The notes under the pieces: model-generated
Told to the model about the DNA's origin: nothing
The model's input: only the letters and a program-made list of their open reading frames with translations
The model's database searches: none
Shown: positions 3,093 through 24,927 of the stretch, one piece after another
Layout of the letters: each line of letters opens with the position of its first letter
How positions within the stretch are numbered: the stretch's first letter is position 1
IMG/VR virus record: IMGVR_UViG_3300042896_000337
Span: 1 to 25,084 of that record
DNA from: a virus
Reading direction: 5' to 3' (one strand)
Length of the DNA stretch: 25,084 nt
Translations under genes and position numbers: made by a program

Positions 3093-3100
3093 GTTATTAT

Positions 3101-4132: not shown

Positions 4133-4138
4133 AGTGTT

Positions 4139-5288: not shown

Positions 5289-5303
5289 TTGCGTATAACG
5301 ACA

Positions 5304-9579: not shown

Positions 9580-9580
9580 A

Positions 9581-11121: not shown

Positions 11122-11497
11122 CTTTTTTTCTTTTAGCTCTTATTGCTGCGGCCAAAGCATCGGCATTCGACTCTCTTTTCTTTTGACGTTCATAAGTCGC
11201 AACACGCCCGCTTGTTGCTTTATTAACTCCTTCGACTATATCTCCCTCTTCGTCTAATCTTTCAATCTTGTATGGAACATTTCCCATCATAGCACGCGCA
11301 TTTTCTTCAAGTGTTGAGTTTTTACGTCCATTTGTTTCTGGATATGCCCCGTAATAATATTCACGAAAAACAATAACACCTCGTTGAACTTTTTTATTAA
11401 TCGAGTCTTTTAAACGCCCCGTATCAACTCTCGCCTCATTTCGTGATTTGGCTACTACTCGCTCAGCTAATTGGCTTTCTTCGGCTGTTACTGACAT
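11084..11497 (-). CDS. HK97 gp10-like tail completion protein (probable)
   Basis: This 137-residue protein contains NEARVDTGRLKDSI (about residues 20-33), then REYYYGAYPETNGRK, matching the gp10-like signature 'DTGxLxxSI' followed by an aromatic-rich 'Y.xYxExG' segment. The C-terminus is highly charged and lysine-rich. In tailed phages such proteins are made from a small gene between head-completion and tail genes and help finish or close the tail. It overlaps the upstream gene by 10 bases and the downstream one by 38 bases, so the group is a tightly coupled tail-completion block. Confidence is moderate because the motif is short. Confidence 0.6.
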   Translation of the reverse strand: MSVTAEESQLAERVVAKSRNEARVDTGRLKDSINKKVQRGVIVFREYYYGAYPETNGRKNSTLEENARAMMGNVPYKIERLDEEGDIVEGVNKATSGRVATYERQKKRESNADALAAAIRAKRKKDDEREKDTRKDN

Positions 11498-11943
11498 CCT
11501 GATCCTTCGTTTGAAATCGACAAAACTATATCGAACTCGTGACCACTTAATCCATTTAGATTTTCATTTTTAATCGGTATCACATCGGTAACGCTCGATA
11601 TTTCAATATTATAATCGTTATACTGACGAAACGAATTAATAAATGATTGTGCAATATTAAATGTTTCATTCCATATATCGGACTGGTTCGTATCTTGTTG
11701 TAACTTTGAATCGGTGCTTTTAATGTAAACATCATTTTGATCTAAAACTTTTATGTGATACGAAAATAAAAGTACATCATCTTGGATAGTTGAACTTTGA
11801 TAATCGCAATTAACAACCGGGTAAATAGTTTCTTTGTTGGTGTCAATTAAGTCATCTGACAAAGTTGTGATAGTGTTCACAAGTGCGTTACTATCAAACT
11901 TCGATATAATATAATCCTTTACTTTTTGTAGTTCGTTTGCCAT
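11488..11943 (-). CDS. Possible tail terminator/minor tail protein
   Basis: This 151-residue alpha/beta protein begins with an amphipathic helix (ELQKVKDYIISKFDSNALV) and continues with strands (IYPVVNCDYQSSTI, LLFSYHIKVLDQNDV) and a long helix (WNETFNIAQSFINSFRQYND). The order helix-strands-helix-strands is that of tail terminator proteins of the gpU type, and the place beside a gp10-like protein agrees. There are no catalytic motifs. It is separated from the next upstream gene by 17 bases, which contain only an A/T-rich leader. A fold comparison would be needed for certainty, so this is a contextual call. Confidence 0.45.
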   Translation of the reverse strand: MANELQKVKDYIISKFDSNALVNTITTLSDDLIDTNKETIYPVVNCDYQSSTIQDDVLLFSYHIKVLDQNDVYIKSTDSKLQQDTNQSDIWNETFNIAQSFINSFRQYNDYNIEISSVTDVIPIKNENLNGLSGHEFDIVLSISNEGSGCQ

Positions 11944-11960
11944 AGCACAAATATAATCAA

Positions 11961-12518
11961 TTAATCAATTGTTTCTACACTTCTTTTTCGTAATAGATAC
12001 TCACCAAGTGACAAATAATTTTTCAATACCATTTGATTAATCTCATCAAATTTCATTGCATCGCCTTTGGATAGTAAGTAGGTAATCTCGGCATACGATC
12101 CATAATCCTTTTGAAACTCATCGCGTAACTGTTTACCTATCGAGTGCTTCCCAATCTTGCCAATAGTTGGCGGGTTGTAAATCCATTCATATTTTTCTTT
12201 GAAGTGAGAAACACTAGAAAGGAAATCGTTTTTAACACGCATTGCAAAAGTCACATCGATGTTTTTTACTTTACGACCCGACAAATGATTGTACAAAGAA
12301 ACTAAATCCGATTTCGATAAATATAAATCAGCAATAATGAAATATTCAGCGGGTAACTCTTCAAAGTTTAAATTCAATTTTACCTTACCATCGTATGGCT
12401 TTGATATCAAATAATTGAACTCATCTATACAAATGTTCCAATCTCTTTTATCAGTTGGGTAAAACGTTTTGAGTATTGTTAATATCGAATCTTCATCATT
12501 CAGTTGCTCCTGACTCAT
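11961..12518 (-). CDS. Conserved-looking late protein, unknown function
   Basis: I choose the ATG at 12516-12518 (MSQEQLNDEDSILTILK), giving 185 residues. An upstream ATG in the same frame at 12623 would add 35 residues, but these overlap almost all of the preceding 62-residue gene in another frame. That extension is rich in Trp, Lys and Arg, like shadow coding. The chosen start overlaps the upstream gene by 23 bases. The protein is alpha/beta, rich in charged residues, with ILKTFYPTDKRDWNICIDEF and a C-terminal helical part. The frame offset to the upstream gene is +1; no convincing slippery site is present. Its place after the terminase does not suggest a function. Confidence 0.6.
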   Translation of the reverse strand: MSQEQLNDEDSILTILKTFYPTDKRDWNICIDEFNYLISKPYDGKVKLNLNFEELPAEYFIIADLYLSKSDLVSLYNHLSGRKVKNIDVTFAMRVKNDFLSSVSHFKEKYEWIYNPPTIGKIGKHSIGKQLRDEFQKDYGSYAEITYLLSKGDAMKFDEINQMVLKNYLSLGEYLLRKRSVETID

Positions 12519-12684
12519 CGACACGAACTTTTCGTAATCGATTTGTTTTTTCTGCTTCACAAGGCGCGCACGGAACATCTGAATCCATTTCATTGTACAT
12601 TTTTTTAATTGCCAGTTGCTCATCTGTTAACTGTTCATTTGGTAGTTCCACGTATGGAAATCTACTTTTAAATAATTCTTTCAT
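12496..12684 (-). CDS. 62-residue late protein with a CxxC motif
   Basis: This small gene lies 11 bases after the large terminase stop and overlaps the next gene start by 23 bases. The protein is acidic and then basic: MKELFKSRFPYVELPNEQ at the start, a helical middle, then CAPC at about residues 39-42 and a charged end with KTNRLRKVRVDESG. CxxC suggests a redox pair or metal site, but two cysteines alone are weak evidence. Codon choice and charge pattern look like real coding, and the position is that of a packaging or head-tail accessory gene. No family is recognised. Confidence 0.55.
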   Translation of the reverse strand: MKELFKSRFPYVELPNEQLTDEQLAIKKMYNEMDSDVPCAPCEAEKTNRLRKVRVDESGATE

Positions 12685-12695
12685 ATTTTTTAGTT

Positions 12696-13898
12696 TTAAT
12701 CTAATCCACTCACAAAAATCTGTTCAACAACCGCATAAGTTCCTGCATCTAATATGTGATCTAATCCACTTGTTTTATCTGGCAAACCATTTTTATAAAC
12801 TTGTTGGCCTAATGCATCGGAATAGTTCGGGCATTTTGCCAAATTTACAAAATATTTTCCATCTTCAAAAGATTTATTTACACCTCGAACTCTATTTAAT
12901 ATTTCAGGGTTTTTCCTTCTAATGTTTACATTAAAATTCCATTGGTCATCTAAAATAATATCGTAGTCCGAAAGTCCTGCCGTGTTTCTATTCTTACAAG
13001 ATGCATCGGGATTTATTTCGATTGCATTATTTGGGTAACGCTCTCGGATTAGTTGGCATAGTTCAGACGTATTATAAATTTTTACAAACTCATCAACTGC
13101 GTGCATCGTGCCATTTTCAATAATGTGTACTATTGCGTGCATATTCTGAACGTTGAAATCCATCCCAATATATAAATCTTGTCCTAATTGCGCTATTTTA
13201 TCGGTATCGTTTTTAATTCTGTCGTATGACTTATAAACACTTCCAGAAGTAAGGTTGCAAAACTCGCCATTAATGTATGCGGTAAGTTCTTCCAATGTGT
13301 ACTCAGACTTCAAAGTGTCAATATAGTCATCTGGCAAAAAAGGGTTATCTATTGTTTTTGCTTTAATCAAATACTTATTTTCGTTCGCTTCTTTTACCGC
13401 GAAATTATAAAGGAAATTGAAGCCTTCTGGTGTAGACACTAGGTCTATTGCCCCTGTTTTTCCCTTCTTGTTTTTTTTTCTATTCCTTCCTAAAATTTTT
13501 TTGAAAACCGCAGCAGCTTTTGTTTTTGACAAAGTGTCAATTTCATCTATAACCGAATAAAATGTTTCATAGCCAACTATAGTTTTCGGGTCACTTAAGT
13601 TTTTTAAAATTATCAAACCGTACTTTGTTGAAAATCTTTTTTTTTGCTCATTATACTTAAATTTAATTTTATTTTCTTCTAAAAACTCTTCAATTCTAGG
13701 CACTGCAATTTCAAATATCAAAGGGTAATTTGGTAAATAATATGCGACACTTCTTCTTGATTGTATGTGTTTTACTACCAATTTAGAAACCGCAGCCTCT
13801 GTTTTTCCAGATCCAAAACCAGCTACCAAAACAGTGTGTTTAAATTCGGACAATAAAAAATCCTCTTGGTGTGGCAATAAGCTAAGATTTAATTCCAA
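12696..13898 (-). CDS. terL: Terminase large subunit
   Basis: This 400-residue protein has the ATPase-nuclease layout of terminase large subunits, the motor that packages DNA into the prohead. Visible motifs are Walker A GFGSGKT (27-33), Walker B VIDEID (116-121), a coupling Ser-Thr at LVSTPEG (153-159), and nuclease-domain acidic residues in YIGMDFN (Asp247), INPDAS (Asp298) and LDHILDAG (Asp380, Asp384). The length is normal to slightly short. It overlaps the putative small terminase by 17 bases, the usual coupled pair. Packaging strategy (cos or pac) cannot be read from the sequence. Confidence 0.92.
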   Translation of the reverse strand: MELNLSLLPHQEDFLLSEFKHTVLVAGFGSGKTEAAVSKLVVKHIQSRRSVAYYLPNYPLIFEIAVPRIEEFLEENKIKFKYNEQKKRFSTKYGLIILKNLSDPKTIVGYETFYSVIDEIDTLSKTKAAAVFKKILGRNRKKNKKGKTGAIDLVSTPEGFNFLYNFAVKEANENKYLIKAKTIDNPFLPDDYIDTLKSEYTLEELTAYINGEFCNLTSGSVYKSYDRIKNDTDKIAQLGQDLYIGMDFNVQNMHAIVHIIENGTMHAVDEFVKIYNTSELCQLIRERYPNNAIEINPDASCKNRNTAGLSDYDIILDDQWNFNVNIRRKNPEILNRVRGVNKSFEDGKYFVNLAKCPNYSDALGQQVYKNGLPDKTSGLDHILDAGTYAVVEQIFVSGLD

Positions 13899-14355
13899 TT
13901 CGAGTGATTTTAATTTCAGTTATCTCTTCGTCTTTTCCTTCTTCGTCTTCAATAAAATAAGACCCATCCATTTTATTTAATTCTGCAATAGCTTGGATAG
14001 GATTGAAAATGTGCGCTTTTTGAATACCGTCTTTTGTACCTATCTCTTTCCAAGTGGTTAACTTCCCGGTTGCAATATCGCTTAAAATCTTTTGCCTTTC
14101 GAGTTTAGACAATATACCCATCTTTGCAGCCTCGCCTAACGCTTCAATTTCTTTTGCTTCAATTATCGGAGTTGCTTTTAATAAAAATTCTTTATATAAA
14201 ATTTCAGCAGCATCGAAGTAATTATAGAAAGATTTTTGCGAATTATTGTAATTTTCTGAAAGTTTTTGCAAAATAGAGGCTTTACTAATTCCTTTCTTTA
14301 AGTCCGAAAGTATTAATTTAATTGCCGTTTCCTTGTCTATTTTTTTAAGTGCCAT
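13882..14355 (-). CDS. terS: Probable terminase small subunit
   Basis: I place the start at the ATG at 14353-14355 (MALKKIDKETAIKLILSD), giving 157 residues. An ATG 42 bases further upstream lies inside the terminator hairpin and would code a non-conserved-looking leader. The protein is basic and helical at the N-terminus, with a helix-turn-helix-like stretch KKGISKASILQKLSENY followed by SQKSFYNYFDAAE. It then has a helical oligomerisation-type middle and an acidic C-terminus (DEEGKDEEITEI). Small terminases bind the packaging site and recruit the large subunit. The assignment comes from the position directly before terL with overlap, plus the HTH. Confidence 0.7.
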   Translation of the reverse strand: MALKKIDKETAIKLILSDLKKGISKASILQKLSENYNNSQKSFYNYFDAAEILYKEFLLKATPIIEAKEIEALGEAAKMGILSKLERQKILSDIATGKLTTWKEIGTKDGIQKAHIFNPIQAIAELNKMDGSYFIEDEEGKDEEITEIKITRIGIKS

Positions 14356-14359
14356 GAAA

Positions 14360-14367
14360 CAAAGATA
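14360..14367 (-). promoter_or_regulatory. Possible -7 box of a late promoter (TATCTTTG)
   Basis: The minus strand reads TATCTTTG four bases before the small terminase ATG, matching the Bacteroidetes -7 consensus TAnnTTTG. No TTG lies at the usual 17 to 23 bases upstream; the nearest is 27 bases away, in the loop of the terminator. If used, the transcript would be almost leaderless, or the box works with a phage-encoded activator. It sits just after the terminator that ends early transcription, where a late promoter would be expected. Confidence 0.3.
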
Positions 14368-14374
14368 CAAAAAA

Positions 14375-14407
14375 ACCGCTTCATCCACTAACCACAAATG
14401 AAGCGGT
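14375..14407 (-). terminator. Rho-independent terminator between early and late genes
   Basis: Arms at 14375-14384 and 14398-14407 form a perfect 10-base-pair GC-containing stem with a 13-base loop. On the minus strand it is followed directly by seven T residues. It follows the 45-residue gene and precedes the terminase genes, so it insulates the late operon from early transcription. Confidence 0.85.
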
Positions 14408-14415
14408 AAAAATTA

Positions 14416-14553
14416 TTAGTAATTATGAATAACAAATGTAGTGATAAATTTATGCTTTTCCAAAACTAATTCTTTATATCTATCACTTCCTTTTTCTTGT
14501 ATATTGATTATGGTATTAAACCAGTCTATTATTTCGGTAAATTTAGTTTTCAT
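14416..14553 (-). CDS. 45-residue protein at the end of the early operon
   Basis: An ATG at 14551-14553 opens a 45-codon frame ending in TAA, with an A/T-rich upstream leader like those of neighbouring genes (CAAACAAATAAAATT before the ATG). The peptide starts MKTKFTEIIDWFNTIINIQE and has an amphipathic helical pattern; there is no signal peptide. It fills the otherwise empty 180-base gap between the VRR-NUC gene and the terminator, and the terminator begins 9 bases after its stop. This supports a real gene, function unknown. Confidence 0.6.
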   Translation of the reverse strand: MKTKFTEIIDWFNTIINIQEKGSDRYKELVLEKHKFITTFVIHNY

Positions 14554-14578
14554 AATTTTATTTGTTTGAATTGTTAAT

Positions 14579-14851
14579 TTAAATAGTTAAGTTTTCTGGA
14601 TATATAATTCCGTCAATATTGTGAAGACAAAAAGCAATTTTACCTAATTTATTTATTTCATCTATTCGTAATTTTTGCAACTCTTTCAAAGCGTCTTTTC
14701 CTTCTTTACACTCAATCCAAATATCGATTTCATTTTCCTTCATACATAAAATATCAGGATAACCATTATCTGAAAGTCTAATTATTTTTAATACCGTCCA
14801 TCCGTTAGACTCGTAATTTTTAATCGTTTTAGTTTGAAAATTTGACGCCAT
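14579..14851 (-). CDS. VRR-NUC domain nuclease
   Basis: This 90-residue protein is a minimal VRR-NUC (PD-(D/E)XK) nuclease. The visible core is GYPD at 30-33 (Asp33), then IWIECKEG with Glu47 and Lys49, and LKELQKLR with Gln59. These match the family pattern GxPDxxx...ExKxxxxxxxxxQ. VRR-NUC proteins of phages are usually coded beside an SF2 helicase, and the group is thought to process branched or flap DNA during replication or repair; the exact substrate is unknown. The start overlaps the helicase gene by 23 bases. Length is normal for the stand-alone phage form. Confidence 0.85.
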   Translation of the reverse strand: MASNFQTKTIKNYESNGWTVLKIIRLSDNGYPDILCMKENEIDIWIECKEGKDALKELQKLRIDEINKLGKIAFCLHNIDGIIYPENLTI

Positions 14852-16061
14852 AATCTTTTTTGAATTGTGATAAAGTGTAATTTTTTTTACTCATTATCGA
14901 TTTATAAATATAACTTTCAATACCTTGTTTTGCAAAAATCCAAAATACATTGTTTTCTTTTCTATCCATTGTAGTTAAACGATCTCGAGATTGCCAGTAA
15001 GAAGTAGCTGAAAAATCAGGCGTTAAATAAACTAAGTAATCGGCATTTTTTAAACTTATTCCCTCGCGTCCTGAAATTATTTGCAATGCTATATTTTTAT
15101 TTGTCGTGTCAAAAGTTTCTAAGTCAAAACAAACATCATCACCATAAAATCCTTTTATCATTTCTAATTCCGTTTGGAATTTATAAAATATTGCAATCTT
15201 ATTATTTTTAAATTTTTCATTTATAAAAACTAGTTTTGAGTTATCCAAAACAATTCCGTTGCCGCTTTCTAAAATAACCGTACCGGAATAAAGTTGATGC
15301 AATTTGCTCATTAATTTTACAGCCGTATCCCCTAATATCAAATCTTTTGAACCTTTAAATAATTTATCTTTTTTCAATACTTTGGCGATATTATAAATTA
15401 TAGGCTTCATTTCAACTTCTAAAATAGTTTCATTTACTTTTGTTTCAAAACCTGCCTGTTCTTGAGTAAAAGTAATCATATATTTTTGAGTTAATTTTTT
15501 AATACGTTCCTGATAGGCGTCTGAATAATCATTTACTTCAGCATATCCAAGGTATTTTTTTTTAACATTAACATAATATTTTGCCCACTTGTAAAAATTA
15601 ATATAATCTTTAAACGGTGTGTAATTAGATAACCAGAATTGATGATAAATTTGAGAATAACTTTCCGGTGTCGGCGTTCCTGATAAAAATATCATCGGTA
15701 AATGTGAAAACTTTTCTTTGATAATTTTAGTTGCATTGTTTGGCTTTGGAAAAGCTCCGTTTCTATGATGCTCATCACTTATCACTAAATCATATTTTTC
15801 TTTGATTAAATGGACGCTTTCATTATTTATAACGGTTATCTCATAATCATAATTAAACGCTTTAAAATCGCTTAAAATTGAGTTTATAGCTTTTTTCTTT
15901 GTTAAGAATAAAACTTTTTTTGCTCCGTATAACTTTGCAGTTTCTAAAGCCATTAATGTTTTTCCAGTTCTAACTTCACAGCATAAATAAACTATCTTTA
16001 ATTTTGAAAGTATTTCGTTTGCTTTTTCAGCTATTTCTTTTTGATATTGTCTTAATTCCAT
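14829..16061 (-). CDS. SF2 DEAD/DEAH-type helicase (SNF2-like phage helicase)
   Basis: I start at the ATG at 16059-16061 (MELRQYQKEIAEKANEIL), giving 410 residues. An ATG 78 bases upstream would encode a cysteine-rich leader made only of the TGTAACA repeats (CNIDCNIHCNI), so it is unlikely. Motifs: Q-like QYQ, Walker A EVRTGKT (29-35), DEHH box (96-99), motif III SGTPTP (127-132), and C-terminal motifs V and VI (ISGREGISL and SYWQSRDRL). It probably unwinds branched or origin DNA in phage replication, together with the VRR-NUC protein. The gene begins at the edge of the candidate origin. Confidence 0.85.
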   Translation of the reverse strand: MELRQYQKEIAEKANEILSKLKIVYLCCEVRTGKTLMALETAKLYGAKKVLFLTKKKAINSILSDFKAFNYDYEITVINNESVHLIKEKYDLVISDEHHRNGAFPKPNNATKIIKEKFSHLPMIFLSGTPTPESYSQIYHQFWLSNYTPFKDYINFYKWAKYYVNVKKKYLGYAEVNDYSDAYQERIKKLTQKYMITFTQEQAGFETKVNETILEVEMKPIIYNIAKVLKKDKLFKGSKDLILGDTAVKLMSKLHQLYSGTVILESGNGIVLDNSKLVFINEKFKNNKIAIFYKFQTELEMIKGFYGDDVCFDLETFDTTNKNIALQIISGREGISLKNADYLVYLTPDFSATSYWQSRDRLTTMDRKENNVFWIFAKQGIESYIYKSIMSKKNYTLSQFKKDYGVKFSN

Positions 16062-16079
16062 AATTTTCTTACTTTTTAG

Positions 16080-16344
16080 TGTAACATTGTAAAAAATGTT
16101 ACAGTGAATGTTACAGTCAATGTTACAGTAGTTTTTCAATGTTTATAAGGCTTCGCATCGTTTTTACTGTAACATGTTACACTTTGTGTTTAAAATTAAT
16201 TATTTTTTTTATTTTACTTTTTTTTATTATTTCTTACTGTAACTGTAACATGTTACACTTTTTCTTTGTTAAGTACTATAAACATTGACTTTTTACTGTA
16301 ACATTTAGTGTAACACTGTAACATTTAAAAATTATTTTGTTACA
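16080..16344. other. Candidate replication origin: iteron-like TGTAACA/TGTTACA array
   Basis: Twelve perfect copies of TGTAACA or its complement TGTTACA lie within 265 bases: plus-strand TGTAACA at 16080, 16168, 16244, 16297, 16309 and 16317, and TGTTACA at 16097, 16109, 16121, 16175, 16251 and 16338. Copies at 16097, 16109 and 16121 are exactly 12 bases apart, and so are 16297 and 16309. Two abutting pairs form the 14-base palindrome TGTAACATGTTACA. A T-rich core lies at 16185-16235. The array fills the gap between primase-helicase and helicase genes, the last copy being inside the primase 3' end. I infer an origin or dense operator; neither has been tested. Confidence 0.7.
16109..16315. repeat. 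Large imperfect inverted repeat around the AT-rich core
   Basis: The arms 16109-16147 and 16277-16315 are 39 bases each and match as inverted copies at 32 positions by eye. Each carries two TGTTACA boxes and ends in an 11-base perfect block (TATAAACATTG and its complement). Between the arms lie the two palindromic box pairs and the T-rich core. The dyad symmetry suggests bidirectional assembly of a binding protein. Confidence 0.75.
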
Positions 16345-18587
16345 GTTTCAAACTCTTTAATCCATCTTGTTATGCTCATTCTGGATATTCCTAAGAGTTC
16401 AGCTGTTTCGCTTCGATTAAAGTCTTTTTTACTTTTCCAAATCTCGTGTAACTTCTCTTTTTCGCTTTTTCCTTTATTAGCTACAATAGTATTTTTAAGT
16501 TTTGAGACCTCAATAGAATTGACTTTTATTTTTTTTGCAGTTGCCACAAAGTACTTACTTAATTTTTCAGCTTTTAAGATGCTTTCTTTTGATATTAGTA
16601 AAGTATTGCCACCTTCAGAAAAGAACTCGTCAAATGTATGAATTAAGCACGCAAAACGAGGAATATAACTCTTTTGCTTAGGCAGCATTGACTTTAAATA
16701 TTCATTTTCATTTTCATCATTCTGGATTATGGTTGTTTCATTAAACATTCTAATCCATTCTTTTTTTGCGTCCTCCGAAAAAATAGCAGTCATAGGTATT
16801 ATTTCGCCATCTTCATTACGTTTGATAATTCCTTTTAAAGTATCGTAAAACATAATAATTGATTCTTTGTACCAAATTAATGTATTTTCGTCAATCTCTT
16901 TTTCGTTGTAACAATCAATTTTTAAATCAGGAAATGACAATAACATCCTATCCATAAAACCATTATCTTTGTTTTCATCTGTATAAAATGAATTAAAAAT
17001 ACTCGGCTGTATACCTCCAAGAACAGGTATAAATGGTTTTTCAACAAATGAGCCAGCCCTTGTAAGTCTGTTTAGGTTTACGCTTTTACCGGACCATGTA
17101 GACAGCCAAAATTCCAAATCAGAACCTTCTCTATATTTATTCATGTCTTTTAACCACCCTGCCAGTTCGTCTTTAAAAACTCCAACCGCATTATCACTTT
17201 CTTGATGTAAATCAACTAAGGCCTCAAGTGTAATGTCGTTTGCAATAAATTGGTTTTTCTTTGGTGCAAAAACCTCATTGTGTTCTTCTTTTTCTTTTTT
17301 ACTCAAAGCGGTATAAAAATCAAATTTTTCACGCTCTTTAATATAGGTTTTTATTTCTTTTTGATTAATTTTTACAAGCGGTGAAATCACATTTGATATT
17401 GAAGGAGTTTTTCCAAGCCCGGCTTTTCCAACAATAGAAATCCAAACGGTTAAATTTTCAATCCATCCTTTTTTTACCTCTACATTTATTGAATTTCCAA
17501 CACAAACAGAAATTAACCAAAGCATTGAGCATCCCATATAATCAATTGAACTGTCTAATTTAGAATTGCATTCAGTTAAATAATTTTGCATTTCAGTAGG
17601 GAAAATTTCAATAGGAAAAACCAAATCATTTTCGTTTATGTTTGGTTTTTCCTCATTAGATTGCATCGATATTTTAGGTTTAATCTCATTTACAATTTTT
17701 TTTAAACGAGATCCAAAACCTTTTGCATATAAATCTTTTGCTCCATCTGATAAATTACCATTATGGTTTTTCCAGCAGTACGCAATAAATGGACTTATTT
17801 GTTTTTCGTGTGGGTAAATTGTACCAGTGGAAAAAAGATACATTAATCCATCCTCTTTATAAACATATCCAGAGTGCGGACTTTCTGAACCGTGTCTTTT
17901 TATAACGTACTTTTTATTATGGTTTGCTACTATTGAAAAATCACTTCCAATAATTTCAAAAATATCAGTTTTTTGATTGAAGTCATCCCAACACGCTATT
18001 TCATTTTCTTGATACTCTTGTTTTTTCTTTACCAGCTCAATTGGAAGTTCATTTACATAATTGTAAGTTCTGGAACAGCTCCATAAAATTTCCCTATCTT
18101 CTTCGCTTATTTCTTTGATTTCGTGATAGTTAATTTTTGACAAAGTATCATCGTAAGCGATAACCATTCCGCCAATCCCTCTACTTTCAATCAATGCCTC
18201 AGGATTGCCCTTTAGTTTTGCAATCTTAGTATTTCCTTTTAACGTTTTGCATCGATAAAGAATATGATAGCCTTTATTTAGAGTTTTTTTAATTACAAAT
18301 TTCTTTTCAAAGTCATCAATATTATCAGTTAAAAATCCTAAATACTCATCCCAAAACTCTTTTTGTTCTTTTAAAGTAGACAAAGTTTTGCAATCAATAT
18401 CGATAACCTCAAGATTATTATATCCTGTTACAAGTCCAAATTTAGGGCTATTAAGTTGTTCAATTTCTTCGGGAGTTCTTGCCGTTGTTTGTGCGTTTTT
18501 CCAAGCCCCAATAGGTGCTTTATTTTCTGCACAAGGGATAACCGAAAATCCGTTTTCAGCTAACTTTTTTAAATAATGCTTTTCCAT
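16332..18587 (-). CDS. Prim-Pol / DUF3987-type primase-helicase with C-terminal HTH
   Basis: This 751-residue replication protein has three parts. Residues 1 to about 170 are a primase-polymerase-like domain: FGLVTGYNNLEVIDIDCK with Asp63 and Asp65 as metal ligands, and GYHILYR with His108. Residues about 330-640 are a DUF3987/D5-like ATPase with Walker A GKAGLGKT (387-394) and a later acidic VFKDELAGWLKDM. The C-terminal end has a helix-turn-helix (NRSETAELLGISRMSITRWI). Such proteins start DNA synthesis and unwind DNA. The HTH could bind the iteron array at its own 3' end; that is inference. The start overlaps the preceding gene by one base (TAATG). Confidence 0.85.
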   Translation of the reverse strand: MEKHYLKKLAENGFSVIPCAENKAPIGAWKNAQTTARTPEEIEQLNSPKFGLVTGYNNLEVIDIDCKTLSTLKEQKEFWDEYLGFLTDNIDDFEKKFVIKKTLNKGYHILYRCKTLKGNTKIAKLKGNPEALIESRGIGGMVIAYDDTLSKINYHEIKEISEEDREILWSCSRTYNYVNELPIELVKKKQEYQENEIACWDDFNQKTDIFEIIGSDFSIVANHNKKYVIKRHGSESPHSGYVYKEDGLMYLFSTGTIYPHEKQISPFIAYCWKNHNGNLSDGAKDLYAKGFGSRLKKIVNEIKPKISMQSNEEKPNINENDLVFPIEIFPTEMQNYLTECNSKLDSSIDYMGCSMLWLISVCVGNSINVEVKKGWIENLTVWISIVGKAGLGKTPSISNVISPLVKINQKEIKTYIKEREKFDFYTALSKKEKEEHNEVFAPKKNQFIANDITLEALVDLHQESDNAVGVFKDELAGWLKDMNKYREGSDLEFWLSTWSGKSVNLNRLTRAGSFVEKPFIPVLGGIQPSIFNSFYTDENKDNGFMDRMLLSFPDLKIDCYNEKEIDENTLIWYKESIIMFYDTLKGIIKRNEDGEIIPMTAIFSEDAKKEWIRMFNETTIIQNDENENEYLKSMLPKQKSYIPRFACLIHTFDEFFSEGGNTLLISKESILKAEKLSKYFVATAKKIKVNSIEVSKLKNTIVANKGKSEKEKLHEIWKSKKDFNRSETAELLGISRMSITRWIKEFETVTK

Positions 18588-18841
18588 TATTTAATAGTTC
18601 CATTAAATGTATAGAAAAATACATCTTTGTTTTTTCCAATAAATTCAAAGCAAGCTTCACCTTCAAAAATATCAGAATAAGGAATCATTACATTTATTTC
18701 AATTTTATTATTTACTGATAAATCAGTATTAATTTTATTGAATAATGCTTTGTGAAGTTGACTTGAATTTTTGTAATTTTCTGACGGTTCATTGTCAAAA
18801 ACTTGGTCAAAGTAATCCTTGTTGGTAATAAAAATTTTCAT
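18587..18841 (-). CDS. 84-residue replication-operon protein, unknown function
   Basis: The first gene of the operon headed by the promoter at 18958-18987. The protein starts MKIFITNKDYFDQVFDNEPS and is acidic, aromatic and probably alpha/beta with strands IEINVMIPYSD and CFEFIGKNKDVFFYTF. It is coupled to the primase gene by a one-base TAATG overlap, which suggests a role in replication or its control. No domain is recognised and no membrane segment is seen. It has a 5' leader with a terminator-like hairpin, so its expression may be attenuated. Confidence 0.7.
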   Translation of the reverse strand: MKIFITNKDYFDQVFDNEPSENYKNSSQLHKALFNKINTDLSVNNKIEINVMIPYSDIFEGEACFEFIGKNKDVFFYTFNGTIK

Positions 18842-18866
18842 AATGTATAAATAAATTAAATTGAAA

Positions 18867-18915
18867 AACCCATAATCGTTTGGCTTTAGTGGATAACGCC
18901 TCCCGATTATGGGTT
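18867..18915 (-). terminator. Terminator/attenuator in the leader of the replication operon
   Basis: Perfect 12-base arms at 18867-18878 and 18904-18915 enclose a 25-base loop; on the minus strand the stem is followed by TTTTTC. It ends the upstream operon. As the promoter at 18958-18987 lies upstream of it and the first replication gene downstream, it also stands inside that transcript's leader, as an attenuator would. Confidence 0.75.
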
Positions 18916-18957
18916 AAAGATTTTTAGTTTATAAAAGTATCCACTCTTTTACATAAG

Positions 18958-18987
18958 CAAATATAACAATTTTATTCAAATCTACAA
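18958..18987 (-). promoter_or_regulatory. Promoter for the replication operon (TTG-N19-TATATTTG)
   Basis: On the minus strand a TTG at 18985-18987 is followed after 19 bases by TATATTTG at 18958-18965, an exact match to TAnnTTTG with the usual spacing. The early operon promoter at 24949-24978 has the same spacing and -7 box. The expected start lies near 18950, about 110 bases before the first ATG. Confidence 0.6.
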
Positions 18988-19323
18988 CAATATCTTATTA
19001 AAAAAACTCATTCCTTTTTCTTTAACAATTTCTTTTTCGTCATAAAATCGTTTAGCAAAATCAGAAAATAAAACCAGTTCCGATATATCCATCTTACCAA
19101 TAGTTTCAGCGAGTTCAGCAGTTTTTTGACAAATGTTTATACTCATTTCTGGCGACATCGCATATACTTTTGCGTATTGCTTTTCTAAGTCTTTTTCTGA
19201 TGCTTTTCTCAATGCGTTGGCAGCTTGTTTAACCTCTCTTTTTACGGGATATTGGTCAATAAATTCGCATAATACTTGTAGTTGTATTGTTAATTCAATT
19301 CCGTTTTTTAGTGGGTTTTTCAT
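18982..19323 (-). CDS. 113-residue helical protein, unknown function
   Basis: This basic to neutral, almost fully helical protein begins MKNPLKNGIELTIQLQVLCE and contains charged heptad-like stretches (VKREVKQAANALRKASEKDL and ICQKTAELAETIGKM). It follows the cysteine-cluster protein gene with only one base between stop and start, so it belongs to that operon. The 3' end carries the -33 element of the next promoter. No catalytic motif, signal peptide or membrane segment is seen. A DNA-binding or accessory role for the modification cassette is possible but unsupported. Confidence 0.7.
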   Translation of the reverse strand: MKNPLKNGIELTIQLQVLCEFIDQYPVKREVKQAANALRKASEKDLEKQYAKVYAMSPEMSINICQKTAELAETIGKMDISELVLFSDFAKRFYDEKEIVKEKGMSFFNKILL

Positions 19324-19324
19324 A

Positions 19325-20122
19325 TCATTTTAAATTTATACCACACATTTCTATGCAGTTCTCACATTTTCCTGTGAATGTTTTTTTATTGAATTTACTA
19401 ATTAATAATGTAGTTTTCATAAACGCCATTTTTTTAACATTTATAACGCCGTCAACAACAAACGAATTACTTTTTGATGGTCTAAAAACAGTGTCAATTA
19501 CATTGTTATTTTTTAATAATTTTCTTTGTATTTCTGCTTTTTCTTTTCCTATTTCATTTAACTCATTAAAATCACAAGTAACAACTCTTAAAACTGATTT
19601 ACAATATGGTTTTATGCGTTCAAATTGATTTAAAGCATTATTTATTAACATATCATTATCTAATGCCGAAACAGATGTATTTATGCAAATATTGTATTTT
19701 TTAATTTCTTGTAATTGATTATCTGTTAATTGTTTCCAATGCCTTGTAATTATGACTATTTGTTTTGTAGATGAAATATCGAATAAAGATAATTGACTGC
19801 TATCACGTATTTGTTTTATAATATTTATTGTATGTTCCCAATTTTCTGACGGGTCACCTGAACAGCCAATACGGATAAATGACATATCAATTTTTTCAAT
19901 TTGCCTTATTATCGACTTTTTATGTGCTTCATTTTCAAAATGTCTTTCAATTGATTTACTAAAGTTTATCCCGTATCTATTAGCAGTTTTAAAAGCGTAA
20001 CAATCGTTATAACATCCTTTTTCATTTTCTAACATTCCGCTTTCACATCCTTTTATAGTGTCTAAATCCCAAATACCCCTTTCGTTTTTTGAAAGGGATA
20101 TTATATCTTTATACAACCTCAT
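19325..20122 (-). CDS. Cysteine-cluster protein, radical-SAM-like (phage DUF5131/Gp37-type resemblance)
   Basis: This 265-residue protein has two cysteine groups. Near the N-terminus is GCESGMLENEKGCYNDCYA, with Cys26, Cys37 and Cys41 (C-x10-C-x3-C). At the C-terminus is KCENCIEMCG, with Cys253, Cys256 and Cys260 (C-x2-C-x3-C). Between are alternating strands and helices with FIRIGCSGDPSENWEHT, IVIITRHWKQL and ICINTSVSAL, which fits a TIM-barrel-like fold. The 'CxxDCYA...RxGxSGDP' pattern resembles phage Gp37/Gp68-type Fe-S proteins; canonical CxxxCxxC is absent. The start overlaps the methyltransferase stop (TAATG), so it should be translated with it. I infer a base-modifying partner. Confidence 0.5.
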   Translation of the reverse strand: MRLYKDIISLSKNERGIWDLDTIKGCESGMLENEKGCYNDCYAFKTANRYGINFSKSIERHFENEAHKKSIIRQIEKIDMSFIRIGCSGDPSENWEHTINIIKQIRDSSQLSLFDISSTKQIVIITRHWKQLTDNQLQEIKKYNICINTSVSALDNDMLINNALNQFERIKPYCKSVLRVVTCDFNELNEIGKEKAEIQRKLLKNNNVIDTVFRPSKSNSFVVDGVINVKKMAFMKTTLLISKFNKKTFTGKCENCIEMCGINLK

Positions 20123-20649
20123 TACAAGCGGCCAATATTTGGATAAAGGTCTTTTATTTTTGAAGTATCACCTTTATAGAATACATAAATACGTTGTTCG
20201 CATTTTGGATATTTACGACTATTTAATGTTTTCTTTGCGGTTGCGCGTCTTGTAAATTCACTTTCTAAATAAATAATTTTATTATAAACGTGCAATCCTT
20301 GGTCTTTAAAGAAAAGTTCGTGTTCGGCATCTGAACAATAATAACCGCCGTCTTTGTTTCTGCTGTCACCTGTCATTACGACAAAGAAAGTATTGTCGTT
20401 CATTACTGAAATAGCATTTTTGTAACCTTCAAAAAGCATATCTCTAAACTGTTCATAAGTTGATAATGAATTTAACTCACCCTCTGGGCTTTTGCCATCG
20501 TAATCTAAATAGGTTTCAACTTTGTAATATGGAGGACAACTAAAAATTAAATCATAATTTTGTTTAGGTGTAAATTTTGAAGTGTCAGATTTTAACCATT
20601 TTACATTTACGAAATCTTGACAAAGTGCGTTATTAGCGTCACATTGGTT
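20122..20649 (-). pseudogene. C-terminal half of a DNA methyltransferase, cut off by an in-frame stop
   Basis: Directly after the TAA at 20650-20652 the same frame stays open to 20122 and continues the methyltransferase: NQCDANNALC completes the 'E.R..Q..AN' helix, then NYDLIFSCPPYY carries catalytic motif IV (SCPPYY). Later YEQFRDMLFEGYKNA and FVVMTGDSRNKDGGYY follow, as in N4/N6 DNA methyltransferases of phage type ('F.V...GD.R'). No ATG, GTG or TTG occurs in frame between the stop and motif IV; the first ATG is at 20437-20439, downstream of it, so a separately started product (105 residues) would lack the catalytic motif. It ends in a TAATG overlap with the next gene. Confidence 0.75.
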
Positions 20650-21513
20650 TTATCTTATTTCAGATGATAAATATTCAAAATTACAACCGCCCGCAACAAA
20701 CCCCATTTGAACCCCACCTCCAAAAGGATTGTAAATTCTACATCCGTTTGTAGGCATAAACATTCTGGCAATAATCTCACAAGCCGTTGGATCTAAAACA
20801 GACGCGTTACCATTTAAGTCTTTTGTTTTATCAGTTATAATTTCGCCGTCTTTAACTGTTTGTTTCGATAACACAACATTTGACATTCCGGCTTTACCTT
20901 GCCAACATCCCTCGCGACTTGCAAACTTAGGATTAGGAATATTATATTTTCTTCCCGCTTCTTCTAATTGTTCATTCCAAGCTCTTTTTACTTTTAACCA
21001 TTCCCCAGATGTAGAGTTCCATAAATTAGTCATTGCCATATGGCATAGTCTTTTTATCCTAACCTGCTCTTCTTTTCCATAATAAATATAAGTAAAATCG
21101 CTTTTAGCTAAATTTACTTTAAAACCAAGTGCTAAAAATACTTTTGGATTTTCTAATTTATGCTTATTAGAAACCGTCATTACCATATGATACCCATTAG
21201 TATTTTGATCTATAATTTTTTGCACCATCATTGAGTAAATTTCTTTACATTCTTTGCCGGGATACATTGCGCTTTGCAATAAACAAAATTCTTTTACGTT
21301 ATGATTTACTTCATAAGTAAAAAAACCGCTAAACTCATCATTAATTTTTAAAATAATAGCGGAATGTTTTTGCATATTAGCTCTAGCTGCTCTATAGGCA
21401 ATTTTATCAATTAATGCTAATTCAGCTACTTGTGTTTCGTAACCAGACCCGATGACACTATCCAATTGGATAAGCTCAATTTTTTCTTCAAATAAACTAG
21501 GTTGTTTTTTCAT
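20650..21513 (-). CDS. GNAT-like domain fused to N-terminal half of a DNA methyltransferase
   Basis: This 287-residue product has two parts. Residues about 25-135 follow the GNAT fold order: strand SAIILKINDE, strand FSGFFTYEV, strand CLLQSAMYPG then helix KECKEIYSMMVQKIIDQ, and the final NPKVFLALGFKV, typical of 'NxxAxxxYxxxGF'. Residues 150-287 are the start of an N4/N6-type methyltransferase, with DPTACEIIARMF, motif I NPFGGG (262-267, normally DPFxGxG) and motif II acidic SEIR (284-287). The frame then stops at TAA instead of continuing into motif IV. With the following same-frame segment the intact enzyme would be 463 residues. The preceding leader is highly structured. Function may be DNA base hypermodification. 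Confidence 0.65.
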   Translation of the reverse strand: MKKQPSLFEEKIELIQLDSVIGSGYETQVAELALIDKIAYRAARANMQKHSAIILKINDEFSGFFTYEVNHNVKEFCLLQSAMYPGKECKEIYSMMVQKIIDQNTNGYHMVMTVSNKHKLENPKVFLALGFKVNLAKSDFTYIYYGKEEQVRIKRLCHMAMTNLWNSTSGEWLKVKRAWNEQLEEAGRKYNIPNPKFASREGCWQGKAGMSNVVLSKQTVKDGEIITDKTKDLNGNASVLDPTACEIIARMFMPTNGCRIYNPFGGGVQMGFVAGGCNFEYLSSEIR

Positions 21514-21548
21514 AATTTTAATTTTTATTATTTAATTTTTTTAAATGG

Positions 21549-21586
21549 AAAAACCCCAATTGTGCACTACTACAATTGAGGTTTTT
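21549..21586 (-). terminator. Terminator hairpin before the methyltransferase gene
   Basis: Arms at 21549-21563 and 21572-21586 form a 15-base-pair stem with one G-U pair and an 8-base loop, followed on the minus strand by CCATTT. The T-run is inside the lower stem (GGGGTTTTT). It ends the upstream recombination operon 35 bases before the methyltransferase ATG, so it may also act as an attenuator. Confidence 0.75.
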
Positions 21587-21649
21587 TCCTTAGTATTTCT
21601 ACTAAATATTTTACCGTCGGTAGTGCTTCGACTTGTCAAAGATAGTTAT
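21587..21649 (-). ncRNA. Structured leader with two further hairpins and a loop-loop match
   Basis: On the minus strand a GTCG/CGAC hairpin (21616-21632) shows GCACTAC in its loop, which is perfectly complementary to GTAGTGC in the loop of the terminator hairpin (21564-21570). Between them a 6-base-pair TTAGTA/TACTAA stem closes a GAAA tetraloop (21590-21605). A TATCTTTG box lies just upstream (21637-21644) but has no -33 partner. This could be a regulatory RNA leader; no known riboswitch family is recognised. Confidence 0.45.
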
Positions 21650-21868
21650 TTATTCCGAATAACTACTATGTTCTTTTGTTAATTCTTTCAATACTTCCAT
21701 TGTAACCGCCACATCTTTTACTTTCTTAAATTGTGCTGCAAATATACCAGCATCTTTTAAATATGTATTTGTAGATGTACATTTGTATTGTTCAGTACCC
21801 AACGCGCTAAATTTAACATAATAAATTGTTTGCGGTTTTATTGGTAATCCTGTTTTTTTTAGGGTCAT
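21650..21868 (-). CDS. 72-residue early protein, unknown function
   Basis: A small basic protein starting MTLKKTGLPIKPQTIYYVKF, with beta strands (TIYYVKFSAL, EQYKCTSTN) followed by a helix (MEVLKELTKEHSS). It overlaps the helix-turn-helix gene by four bases (ATGA), and the two are probably coupled. The structured leader and terminator follow its stop within 20 bases, so it is the last gene of the recombination operon. No family is recognised. Confidence 0.65.
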   Translation of the reverse strand: MTLKKTGLPIKPQTIYYVKFSALGTEQYKCTSTNTYLKDAGIFAAQFKKVKDVAVTMEVLKELTKEHSSYSE

Positions 21869-22131
21869 CTCGTATAAGTTTTTAATTTAAATTCTCTAAA
21901 CTGTTCATATAATTCCTCTTTTGTTTCAACGTGATTCATTTTGCTTTCGTAAATAACCTCTTCTAAAACTCCTAATCGATATAAGCAATAGTGTAAAAGT
22001 TCTTCCTGATAAACGTCTAAAAAACTAAAACCGTTTATATTGGTTGGAACAATTTTATTAACTTTCATTGTACGGTATGTTTTTTCGTAATTCAAATTAC
22101 ATTCTTTTGCTATTTGCGAAATTCGTTTCAT
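21865..22131 (-). CDS. Small helix-turn-helix protein
   Basis: This 88-residue protein begins with a helix-turn-helix-like segment (MKRISQIAKECNLNYEKTYR) in which ISQIAKECNL is the first helix and the turn is followed by YEKTYRTMKV as the recognition helix. The C-terminal half is helical and acidic/basic (LEEVIYESKMNHVETKEELY). Small HTH proteins of this kind in phage early regions are often regulators or DNA-binding helpers. It overlaps the 25-codon upstream frame by four bases and the next gene by four bases. Target sites are unknown. Confidence 0.6.
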   Translation of the reverse strand: MKRISQIAKECNLNYEKTYRTMKVNKIVPTNINGFSFLDVYQEELLHYCLYRLGVLEEVIYESKMNHVETKEELYEQFREFKLKTYTR

Positions 22132-22205
22132 AATCTAAATATATTTTTTTGATTTCCAAATAAGAAAAAAGAAATCTTGTTGTAAATTTTATCAAATGTT
22201 TTCAT
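22128..22205 (-). CDS. 25-codon leader-like small frame
   Basis: An ATG at 22203-22205 opens a frame of 25 codons, MKTFDKIYNKISFFLFGNQK and five more residues, that ends in TGA overlapping the ATG of the helix-turn-helix gene (ATGA). The peptide is basic and aromatic. The coupling junction and placement four bases after a possible hairpin arm suggest a leader peptide or very small protein, but frames this short also arise by chance. Confidence 0.35.
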   Translation of the reverse strand: MKTFDKIYNKISFFLFGNQKNIFRL

Positions 22206-22209
22206 AATA

Positions 22210-22254
22210 GGGGTCTTTTAAATTACCCCGCTAAATTTAGGAAAAAAGCGGGGT
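22210..22254 (-). other. Hairpin with two competing partners
   Basis: AGCGGGGT (22225-22232 on the minus strand) pairs perfectly over 8 bases with the upstream ACCCCGCT (22247-22254). Its GGGGT part can instead pair with ACCCC at 22210-22214, four bases before the small ATG at 22205. The two structures exclude each other. No T-run follows on the minus strand, so this is not a simple terminator in the gene direction. Confidence 0.5.
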
Positions 22255-22265
22255 TTTGATTTTGG

Positions 22266-22520
22266 TTATTTAACTTGCCATCCTTGCAATCCTACATAAT
22301 ATTTGCCATTATATTCATTTCCACGAATATTAACGCTTACCGTAACTTCTTGTCCATTTGCCACAAAGTCTAATAAAGTAACTTTATCTTGAACAAAATC
22401 TACTGGCACTTTTTGAGGATATTGCTCGTCTGTTTCAACTACTAATAATCTTTTTTTGAAGTCTTTTGCCCCTACTGTTTCTGTTTCACCTACTAAAAAT
22501 ACTTTTCCTTTAATTTCCAT
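22266..22520 (-). CDS. DUF3127-like OB-fold protein, likely single-strand DNA binding
   Basis: This 84-residue protein matches the pattern I recall for DUF3127 proteins of Bacteroidetes: MEIKGKVFLVGETETVG, then LLVVETDEQYPQKVPVDF, VANGQEVTVSVNIRGNEYNG and KYYVGLQGWQVK at the end. It is a five-stranded small beta barrel by pattern, close to the OB fold of SSB proteins. It lies two bases after the exonuclease gene in the recombination cassette, so binding of single-stranded DNA produced by the exonuclease is plausible. This function is inferred; no acidic SSB-type tail is present. Confidence 0.75.
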   Translation of the reverse strand: MEIKGKVFLVGETETVGAKDFKKRLLVVETDEQYPQKVPVDFVQDKVTLLDFVANGQEVTVSVNIRGNEYNGKYYVGLQGWQVK

Positions 22521-22522
22521 AT

Positions 22523-23170
22523 TTAAAATTTTAATTTGTTTAATTCAATTTCTATTTGTACCCGTAAAGAACATGCTTCAATTTTTGCAATATCAACCCA
22601 TTCAGAAATAGTTTTCAATACCGGTTTCGCTTTCGTTCCTAAATTTACCAAACTGTCTCTTGTCAATTCTTTTACAAAAATAGGTTTATAAATGTTTTCA
22701 GGTCTATAACTGCAAAAGTAATGTTTTTCTAATTTAGGATTAACAGTAAAATAGTGTAAACATTGGTGTATATTATCGCTTGGAATTTCATTTGCGCGAA
22801 TAGTTGATAAATGTTTTTTTGAGTTTGGACATTTTATTTCTGCTGAAATAGTTTCACATTCTGTAATCCCATCAGGTGAAATACCTAAATATTCGTTTTC
22901 CTCACATTGCAACCATCCAACCTCTTTAAGTTCGATTCCTAAATAAGCACTTAAAGCACGTCTTGCCTCTGGTTCTTTTTCCTTGCCCATAATCATATCA
23001 TAAGACTGGTAATTCTCCTGAAGGTCAAACTCCTCACTTAATTCACTTAAAATCTCTATCAGTAAAGTGTCTGACTTTACAAACAGCCCAGAAGAACGTG
23101 TTCCTCCAATTTTTGCGTACCTGCATAAATGCCAGTCCTCGCTTCCTTGTTCAATGTTAATTATTTTCAT
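22523..23170 (-). CDS. YqaJ/lambda-type 5'-3' exonuclease
   Basis: This 215-residue protein shows the motifs of the YqaJ viral recombinase family (PD-(D/E)XK fold): GSEDWHLCRYAKIGGTR (9-25), GKEKEPEAR (62-70), GISPDG with Asp100, and AEIKCP with Glu111 and Lys113 as catalytic residues. The length is normal. Such enzymes resect double-stranded ends for phage recombination together with a single-strand annealing protein. Its ATG directly follows the stop of the homing endonuclease gene (TAAATG), and the DUF3127 gene follows two bases later. Confidence 0.88.
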   Translation of the reverse strand: MKIINIEQGSEDWHLCRYAKIGGTRSSGLFVKSDTLLIEILSELSEEFDLQENYQSYDMIMGKEKEPEARRALSAYLGIELKEVGWLQCEENEYLGISPDGITECETISAEIKCPNSKKHLSTIRANEIPSDNIHQCLHYFTVNPKLEKHYFCSYRPENIYKPIFVKELTRDSLVNLGTKAKPVLKTISEWVDIAKIEACSLRVQIEIELNKLKF

Positions 23171-23935
23171 TTACAAATATTTAAAATTAGTATTGTTTTT
23201 CATTTGTCCATTTAATCTTTTCTGAATAGTCCATTTGCTTATATTTAGCATTTCAGCTAATTCAGTAGCTGAGGTATAAATCTCACCCGTTTCTACATTA
23301 ATTACTTTTCTTTTTAAAGAATTTGATATTTTATTTTTAGTAATTTCAGATAATATCCTGTCTTTGCATCTTGTATTTCCTAATGATGAAAAACTCATTT
23401 TTTTCTTTGTTTCATTTGAAACTTTTCTGCCTTTACAATATTGATTATTTAAATGTATTCTACTTATTTTGTCTAAAGTTTCTTTGCTGTGTGTTTTTCC
23501 ATAAAATGAGTTTTTATCTCCATTTCTACCAAACATAGGATTATTTTTTCCTTTCATTCTATTGGATTTCTTTAAACAAGTTTCTTTAGATTGCTTCATT
23601 CCAGTTCTTGTTATTGACATTTTTAACCTTGTTTCTTGACTGGCTTTTCCATTTCTGTCACTAGAAGTTGTTAAGCTACAATTTAAACCGTTTTTTGAAG
23701 TAGCATTATATAAATCCTGATAATATCGTTCTTTGTCATTCAACTCTGAAACTTCACATTCGCACAATATTTCAAATTTATGATTATCAAAACCATATTT
23801 TAAAAATGAATTTCTCAATCTTGGCTGGTCGAATGGTATTTTATATTTATAAGACTTAAATCTTTTTTCAATATCAATACTTTGTCCAATATAAACTCTT
23901 TTACTCTTACTTGTTATTTTATAAATTCCTATCAT
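23171..23935 (-). CDS. Freestanding GIY-YIG homing endonuclease
   Basis: This 254-residue protein has a GIY-YIG nuclease domain at residues 1-95 (GIYKI at 3-7, YIG at 15-17, Arg25 in KRFKSYK, and a DKERYYQ helix), then repeated NUMOD3-like DNA-binding motifs (NNPMFGRNGDKNSFYGKTHS, SKETCLKKS and KGRKVSNETKKKMS). A C-terminal NUMOD1/IENR1-like HTH follows (TSATELAEMLNISKWTIQKR). This is the domain order of SegA/I-TevI-like mobile endonucleases. It stands alone between the conserved early gene and the exonuclease and abuts the latter. The protein is very lysine- and asparagine-rich and more AT-rich in codon use than neighbours, in line with insertion. Confidence 0.9.
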   Translation of the reverse strand: MIGIYKITSKSKRVYIGQSIDIEKRFKSYKYKIPFDQPRLRNSFLKYGFDNHKFEILCECEVSELNDKERYYQDLYNATSKNGLNCSLTTSSDRNGKASQETRLKMSITRTGMKQSKETCLKKSNRMKGKNNPMFGRNGDKNSFYGKTHSKETLDKISRIHLNNQYCKGRKVSNETKKKMSFSSLGNTRCKDRILSEITKNKISNSLKRKVINVETGEIYTSATELAEMLNISKWTIQKRLNGQMKNNTNFKYL

Positions 23936-23942
23936 AAATGAA

Positions 23943-24011
23943 AATTCCCCTCAAAAGTTTACCGCCAAGTGAAACTAAAGAAGGGAATTGTTAAGTTCTT
24001 AATCTTGGCGG
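23943..24011 (-). other. Pseudoknot-capable leader of the GIY-YIG gene
   Basis: Four arms interleave: AATTCCC at 23943-23949 pairs with GGGAATT at 23983-23989, and CCGCCAAG at 23962-23969 pairs with CTTGGCGG at 24004-24011. The order of arms A-B-A'-B' makes an H-type pseudoknot. On the minus strand the last arm (GGGGAATT) ends seven bases before the endonuclease ATG, where it could hide the ribosome entry site. Some phage homing endonuclease genes are known to be held silent by leader structures. Confidence 0.6.
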
Positions 24012-24038
24012 ATTTACAGTAAAGATATGAAAAATAAT

Positions 24039-24572
24039 CTATTTTAAAGTTGTTTTAAGTTTTTCTTTCAATGCAATTACAGTAGGTAAATGTTGCTCAC
24101 TTGGCGTTAATGTTTTCCACGCTATTTGTAACGATTCTAAAGAAGTACATAAATTTAAAATTCCCAATGCGTTAATATCTAAAACTACTTTTTTAATCAC
24201 TGGTTTAACTTTTATTCCTCCAGTTACTTTACCCATCATTTTAACCGATGGATCGAACCATAAATCAATTTGAATATTTTTCCAACTTGGTAACATTCTA
24301 CTTTCGGCACTTGAGCATCCAAGTTTTTCTTTTACGATTTCATTGATTATTTTACGATTACCGCTATTGGCTACCATGTCTTTTACAGGCTCTATAAATT
24401 CGATAAAATAACCGTCTGTTTTGTTTCCTGATACATCCACACCCCTATCATAGAACGCTTCTTTAATAGTTAAAATACAATTGCCTTTTTCTTCCACAAT
24501 TGCCTCTACATCGATACCCGCTAAATGCGTGGATTTTCGATATTTCATACTGTCAATTTCTGTTTCTTTCAT
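24039..24572 (-). CDS. Conserved phage protein of the recombination cassette, unknown function
   Basis: This 177-residue protein starts MKETEIDSMKYRKSTHLAGI; a start at Met9 is possible. It has a central beta-rich domain with YDRGVDVSGNKTDGYFIEFI, then NSGNRKIINEIVKEKLG, and KMMGKVTGGIKVKPV. I recall proteins with this 'GVDVSGNK..GYF..F.EPVK' pattern beside YqaJ exonucleases in Flavobacterium phages. It could be a recombination partner such as a single-strand annealing or DNA-binding protein, but no RecT, Erf or Sak motif is visible. It follows the 38-residue gene by two bases. Confidence 0.6.
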   Translation of the reverse strand: MKETEIDSMKYRKSTHLAGIDVEAIVEEKGNCILTIKEAFYDRGVDVSGNKTDGYFIEFIEPVKDMVANSGNRKIINEIVKEKLGCSSAESRMLPSWKNIQIDLWFDPSVKMMGKVTGGIKVKPVIKKVVLDINALGILNLCTSLESLQIAWKTLTPSEQHLPTVIALKEKLKTTLK

Positions 24573-24574
24573 AA

Positions 24575-24691
24575 TTACTTTTTTAATTGTTTAATTTTCT
24601 CTAATTCCTTAGCTTTTGCGAGTGCTAATAACGCTTTTGTTCTTAATGATGTTTTGGATTCGTAAACCCAGTTAGTTATGGTTGCGGACAT
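24575..24691 (-). CDS. 38-residue early peptide
   Basis: An ATG at 24689-24691 overlaps the TGA of the first early gene in a TGATG junction and opens a frame of 38 codons ending in TAA, two bases before the next ATG. The peptide starts MSATITNWVYESKTSLRTKA and ends in a basic, leucine-rich helix (LEKIKQLKK). Tight coupling on both sides is the main evidence that it is translated. Function unknown. Confidence 0.6.
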   Translation of the reverse strand: MSATITNWVYESKTSLRTKALLALAKAKELEKIKQLKK

Positions 24692-24927
24692 CAATATTTA
24701 TTTAAAATGTTATTTTTTTCTGTTTGTTCTTCATAACTCAAAAATCCAAAAGTTTTAAAACTTTCTTCAATTTCTTTCAACTTAATTAAATGCAACTTCA
24801 TTATGTGAACTTTTGCACATAATTCCATGTTCCAATCTTGTTGTTGTTCTAGTTCTGTTAATGGTTCGTTTTCGGTTTGATTAATTGGATTGTTTGGATT
24901 CCATTCGTTGTAAGTGTCTAGGCTCAT
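24691..24927 (-). CDS. First gene of the early operon, 78-residue acidic protein
   Basis: The first gene after the early promoter. It starts MSLDTYNEWNPNNPINQTEN, has a Glu/Gln-rich stretch (LTELEQQQDWNMELC) and a helical C-terminal half (HLIKLKEIEESFKTF). No known domain is recognised. As the first leftward early gene it could be an anti-repressor, anti-restriction or host-takeover protein, but that is only position. The start lies about 22 bases after the promoter -7 box, with an A/T-rich leader. Confidence 0.65.
   Translation of the reverse strand: MSLDTYNEWNPNNPINQTENEPLTELEQQQDWNMELCAKVHIMKLHLIKLKEIEESFKTFGFLSYEEQTEKNNILNKY

Follow-up and report, generated by a model that had tools for sequence, protein, structure and literature searches.

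The window, by which we mean the whole 25,084-nucleotide stretch of viral DNA analysed here, carries a phage gene for a GNAT-methyltransferase (MTase) fusion protein that is interrupted by one in-frame TAA codon. With a probability of about 0.9, the interruption reflects a very recent single-base nonsense change in an otherwise intact and constrained gene, taking together a real allele and an error in the consensus sequence. The stop is probably a recent nonsense allele rather than a consensus error, and readthrough is unlikely. The features on which the analysis is based are the following:

20122-21513, minus strand (read from 21513 to 20122): frame of the GNAT-MTase family, from translation.
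20653..21513, minus strand: N-terminal part actually encoded, 287 residues, from translation, the AlphaFold2 (AF2) model and the VIA alignment, with the motifs in 34/34 aligned members.
20650..20652, minus strand: premature TAA, codon 288 of the family frame, a sense codon in 147/147 covering relatives.
20437..20439, minus strand: first in-frame ATG past the stop, downstream of motif IV, opening the ORF 20122-20439 (MLFEGYKN).
20122..20649, minus strand: remaining frame, holding the catalytic part of the MTase, including motif IV CPPYY (residues 326-330), and the natural stop; matched by PHROG 498, with Pfam N6_N4_Mtase below cut-off.
19325..20122, minus strand: partner gene, intact, 265 aa, from its cysteine pattern and a TIM-barrel-like model.

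A sequence-only reading of the same DNA had proposed that a single TAA at 20650-20652 breaks a frame that is otherwise open. Translation confirmed this, and its coordinates were correct; the strand, which it had left unstated, is the minus one (reverse translation of 20122-21513). The frame runs from MKKQPSL to SEIR (287 residues), meets the TAA, and continues from NQCDANN for 175 residues to the natural TAA. The encoded N-terminal part includes the GNAT-fold domain (residues 10-148) and a linker, followed by the first segment of the MTase domain, up to and including motif I (NPFGGG, residues 262-267). The same reading held that no bases were lost at the join, and indeed SEIR-(Q/K/E)-NQCDANN-like text of the same length was found in 34 aligned sequences. 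Its statement that the rest of the frame is undamaged was also borne out: across 59 aligned copies, the window has just one further residue that no other copy shares, C89 of the GNAT domain. As it had further stated, no ATG, GTG or TTG lies in frame between the premature TAA and motif IV, the earliest restart being the ATG at 20437-20439, past CPPYY. Without readthrough, the catalytic part is thus untranslated. The virus, or its sample consensus, would make only the N-terminal 287 residues, without the MTase catalytic part, and the truncated protein would be expected to have no MTase activity. The family may modify phage nucleic acid, and its loss would then be tolerated where the host does not select for the modification.

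Then, we compared the gene with its relatives. With the protein or its alignments as query, viral_contigs was scanned three times and genome_contigs once, which gave 148 distinct contigs; two of these scans used the best 80 of 246 and the best 80 of 216 matches, and duplicate loci of one contig were removed through a hand-typed list based on contig names. At the position of the window stop, each of the 147 contigs that cover it encodes an amino acid (Gln in 126, Lys in 16, Glu in 5). The count required at least 50% identity, which set aside, for instance, another, divergent MTase of L009; its unit is the contig and not the independent lineage, since the 144 full-length coding sequences include 123 distinct ones. 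The alignment with homologues that had been suggested for finding the normal codon therefore gave Gln, Lys or Glu, and a stop in none. With three alternative residues among the relatives, the position is not invariant, nor does it represent a conserved site of recoding. Contigs L033, L055, L059 and L062 were excluded from the codon alignment.

The gene is one uninterrupted chain in 144/148 contigs; three of the others are cut by contig ends and one (L055) is broken by a deletion. This bears on the idea that the family normally consists of two chains, GNAT and MTase, of which the window would hold one split gene. The two domains are separate folds, as such an arrangement would have it, but homologues that are regularly two chains, which the sequence-only reading had named as evidence against a break, were not what we found. 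There is also no start codon from the stop to motif IV, and the stop lies past motif I, within the MTase domain, rather than between the two domains. The split-gene reading is contradicted by the single-chain relatives, the lack of a restart and the position of the stop within the MTase domain, and we regard it as hardly credible.

Two additional stretches were observed among the relatives. In L009, the second divergent MTase lies on the opposite strand (L009:1357-2025) with 29% identity to residues 237-460. In L162, a second stretch with 36% identity to residues 12-181, the GNAT half, directly follows the full gene and reaches the end of the available sequence (L162:2967-3500).

The age of the break was evaluated from the selection acting on the two sides of the stop. 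Among the relatives fetched, the nearest one (L021) shares with the window copy 87% identity at the DNA level and 97% at the protein level. Against five close relatives, the whole gene had a dN/dS of 0.038-0.060 and the part beyond the stop one of 0.016-0.038, the latter being no higher than the post-stop values of intact relatives compared among themselves (0.040-0.074). On the window branch, 10 synonymous changes and 1 non-synonymous change were counted after the stop, so the neutral share of the branch is at most ~11%, a rough 95% bound calculated solely from the columns that are invariant in seven relatives. Because the gene evolved under purifying selection before as well as beyond the stop, the break is either very recent or a consensus error. 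By these substitution patterns, the MTase gene was under constraint until the stop arose. The suggestion that selection was relaxed over the lineage found no support, given the purifying selection until the stop and the absence of an enrichment of MTase breaks relative to other genes. Conversely, the suggestion of a recent break or of a sequence error was well founded, in the form of a single nonsense change.

A functional protein made by readthrough would be strongly constrained as well, and programmed or suppressor-tRNA readthrough of the TAA could allow the full-length protein to be made in low or regulated amounts. In addition, since the relatives have Gln, Lys or Glu at the site, insertion of a residue there would not necessarily do harm. 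However, a conserved stop, which marks programmed readthrough, was found at the site in 0/147 relatives. An alternative code with TAA as a sense codon is equally unsupported, since TAA is the main normal terminator of the window (18 of the 29 listed ORFs, with TGA closing 6 and TAG 5). In the 25-kb fragment we found no tRNA, hence no suppressor tRNA, and no Rfam match; RNA structure at and after the stop was not unusual (z -0.19, 1.11 and -0.28, in a test that leaves pseudoknots aside). A very recent origin of the stop accounts for the constraint beyond it, with no need for readthrough. The regulated readthrough proposed by the sequence-only reading thus did not hold up, and we consider it very unlikely.

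A consensus error is a more serious competitor: the viral population would have the sense codon, and the stop would exist in the contig only. The stop occurs in one contig only, in a gene that is otherwise constrained, and all the comparable window genes are intact. Indeed, the window genes at 2487-16139 align in frame with near relatives in L137-L142 without any break, in a check of frame soundness that covers the window genes with near relatives; by reading of the start codons, the stops seen in relatives over this region lie where the 5' ends of the window ORFs are over-extended. A 41-base pattern spanning the site, with the first base of the stop left open, found no match that could represent a second copy of the window virus in viral_contigs, a collection from which records very close to the window may have been withheld. 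On the other hand, the window contig carries one such break only and no other frame damage, so that its error rate is not visibly high, and natural breaks are known in the family (L055). We therefore give a consensus error a substantial but minor share of the probability, and somewhat favour the presence of the stop in real virus genomes.

The window is also a mosaic: its structural half (2487-16139) is close to L137 and L140-L142, and most of its replication half (16332-24927) is unmatched there. On the minus strand, the ORF 23171-23935, which starts MIGIYKITSKSKRVYIGQSIDIEKRF, resembles by its motif a putative GIY-YIG homing endonuclease.

The frequency of MTase breaks was compared with that of breaks in other genes. 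In one detector run on the same contigs, the MTase was broken in 2/148 instances (the window and L055) and other genes in 3/339 (Fisher p 0.64), among relatives fetched through intact peptide patterns, in which broken copies are under-sampled. The other genes comprised the partner (0/100, by a detector that needs 60% identity and missed the apparent partner breaks in L169, L110 and L189) and the remaining genes (3/239, with two of the three broken ones, in L045 and L227, based on one comparison each). These apparent partner breaks were seen by eye, as an in-frame stop at the cysteine cluster in L169:658-1449 and as internal deletions in L110:3796-4392 and L189:1735-2076. Both genes of the cassette are thus subject to breaks, with no sign of an unusual rate.

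The second broken MTase can be compared with a nearly identical intact one. The record of L055 has 35,202 bases, including a 114-bp end repeat from which the genome is apparently complete and circular, and aligns at 99.3-99.9% with the 26,744-base record of L010. The MTase of L055 has a 94-bp out-of-frame deletion at L055:6016 (L010:6017-6110), just past motif IV, with no microhomology at the junction. Outside short divergent patches near the ends of the L010 contig, the two differ by this deletion and by 2 bases in the partner gene; in the compared stretch, all ORFs have equal lengths apart from the MTase and a short one within a divergent patch. At the level of the assembled records, the pair shows that phages in nature can lose the MTase, and it represents a useful natural knock-out pair.

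The loss of the MTase could also be adaptive or phase-variable, with broken alleles being kept as some hosts restrict modified nucleic acid. The natural break in the L055/L010 pair is in line with this, as are the apparent partner-gene breaks in the three contigs L169, L110 and L189. Nevertheless, the MTase is broken at a rate like that of other genes, itself uncertain given how the relatives were fetched, and the point change is the one alteration noted at the site. We consider this explanation improbable. The break itself is ordinary, be it a nonsense allele or a consensus error, with a rate close to background. Natural nonsense and deletion alleles of phage accessory genes present the same picture, a single recent disruption in a gene that is otherwise constrained, and, as far as tested, nothing distinguishes the window break from them.

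The identity of the interrupted protein was investigated by motifs, family matches and folds. Class I amino-MTases have a glycine-rich motif I and a motif IV made of xPP followed by Y, F or W; NPFGGG and CPPYY are both present in 34/34 aligned members. The part after the stop is matched by PHROG 498 (DNA methyltransferase, E 3.6e-31), and PADLOC matched mad2 to the MTase half (E 1.5e-7). Pfam PF01555 (N6_N4_Mtase) stayed below its cut-off of 26.7 with both the C-terminal part (24.8 bits) and the read-through protein (21.1), and the MTase profile matched no PDB sequence. The AlphaFold2 model of the read-through protein, obtained with 34 aligned sequences, had a mean pLDDT of 78 and a pTM of 0.81. 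Since methyltransferases dominated the Foldseek matches of the full MTase model, VIA-align was used to reveal the GNAT half: residues 10-148 have a GNAT fold (Z 16.4, 134 aligned, rmsd 2.5 A against 7rb3_A). Fold comparison assigned residues 152-448 to the class I MTase fold, the best match for residues 131-447 being the Rossmann MTase fold of 5e71, a Trm11 tRNA methyltransferase (Z 17.0, 202 aligned, rmsd 3.9 A). The name GNAT-methyltransferase, which the sequence-only reading had used, is backed in both halves by these comparisons and is right as a description of the modelled folds; acetyl transfer is putative.

Known systems resemble the protein in part. The MTase half is similar to the phage orphan DNA methyltransferases of PHROG 498 and PHROG 12517 (Croceibacter phage P2559S_66, Listeria B054 gp77, Enterococcus phiFL3A gp36), and in P2559S residues 166-455 of the query were matched in one piece within one annotated gene. 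However, the 22 named records are all below 60% identity, none covers 80% of the query, and the GNAT half is unmatched among the listed hits. Trm11/TrmN-type N-methyltransferases are the best structural match, yet share 13% identity; these enzymes act on tRNA guanine, whereas we assign no substrate to the window protein, DNA being a candidate suggested by the family names. GNAT N-acetyltransferases (NatC, Naa50) share the fold of residues 10-148. Their usual acetyl-CoA signature is Q/R-x-x-G-x-G/A; in the window family, it was found in 0/34 members, with residues 1-150 searched.

The MTase gene does not stand alone. The ATG of the partner gene overlaps the natural MTase stop as TAATG. Within the flank examined, the partner was found in 129/148 contigs, downstream in 110 and upstream in 19, always on the same strand, and its start overlaps the MTase stop in 102 contigs. 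The cysteine pattern C-x(9-12)-C-x3-C is present in 30/30 partner members, together with a C-terminal CxxCxxxC; the radical SAM motif CxxxCxxC is present in 0/30. The partner model (pLDDT 90) is TIM-barrel-like, and Foldseek gave weak matches to TokK (E 0.014) and RlmN (E 0.082), with none at E 0.001. NCBIfam rSAM_mob_pairB was matched in 2/30 members (best E 0.00087), and searches of Pfam, NCBIfam and PDB sequences gave no confident family. On the basis of the model, the partner is possibly radical-SAM-like, which we treat as a lead only.

Neither a partner match at E 0.001 in 50,697 named phage records nor a match to the cassette DNA in named phages was found. A relative of the terminase was present in just 1/8 tested cassette-bearing records, and weak there, which suggests transfer of the cassette between unrelated phages. 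In the part of the literature that our search covered, we found nothing on such a stop or on the two-gene cassette.

From these data we put forward a tentative proposal, with the odds against it as a whole. The stop may be a loss allele of natural origin in a mobile phage cassette that has yet to be described, in which a GNAT-fold/amino-MTase fusion without the usual acetyl-CoA signature and a multi-cysteine TIM-barrel enzyme, possibly radical-SAM-like, together make an unusual nucleic-acid modification. Either gene would be lost now and then in wild populations, the MTase in the window and L055 and the partner in L169, L110 and L189. If this is true, near-isogenic pairs of intact and broken phages could reveal the purpose of the modification.

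More generally, isolated in-frame stops in metagenomic phage contigs should not be taken for readthrough. The stop described here draws attention to a common two-gene, modification-like cassette, and the cassette is more interesting than the stop.
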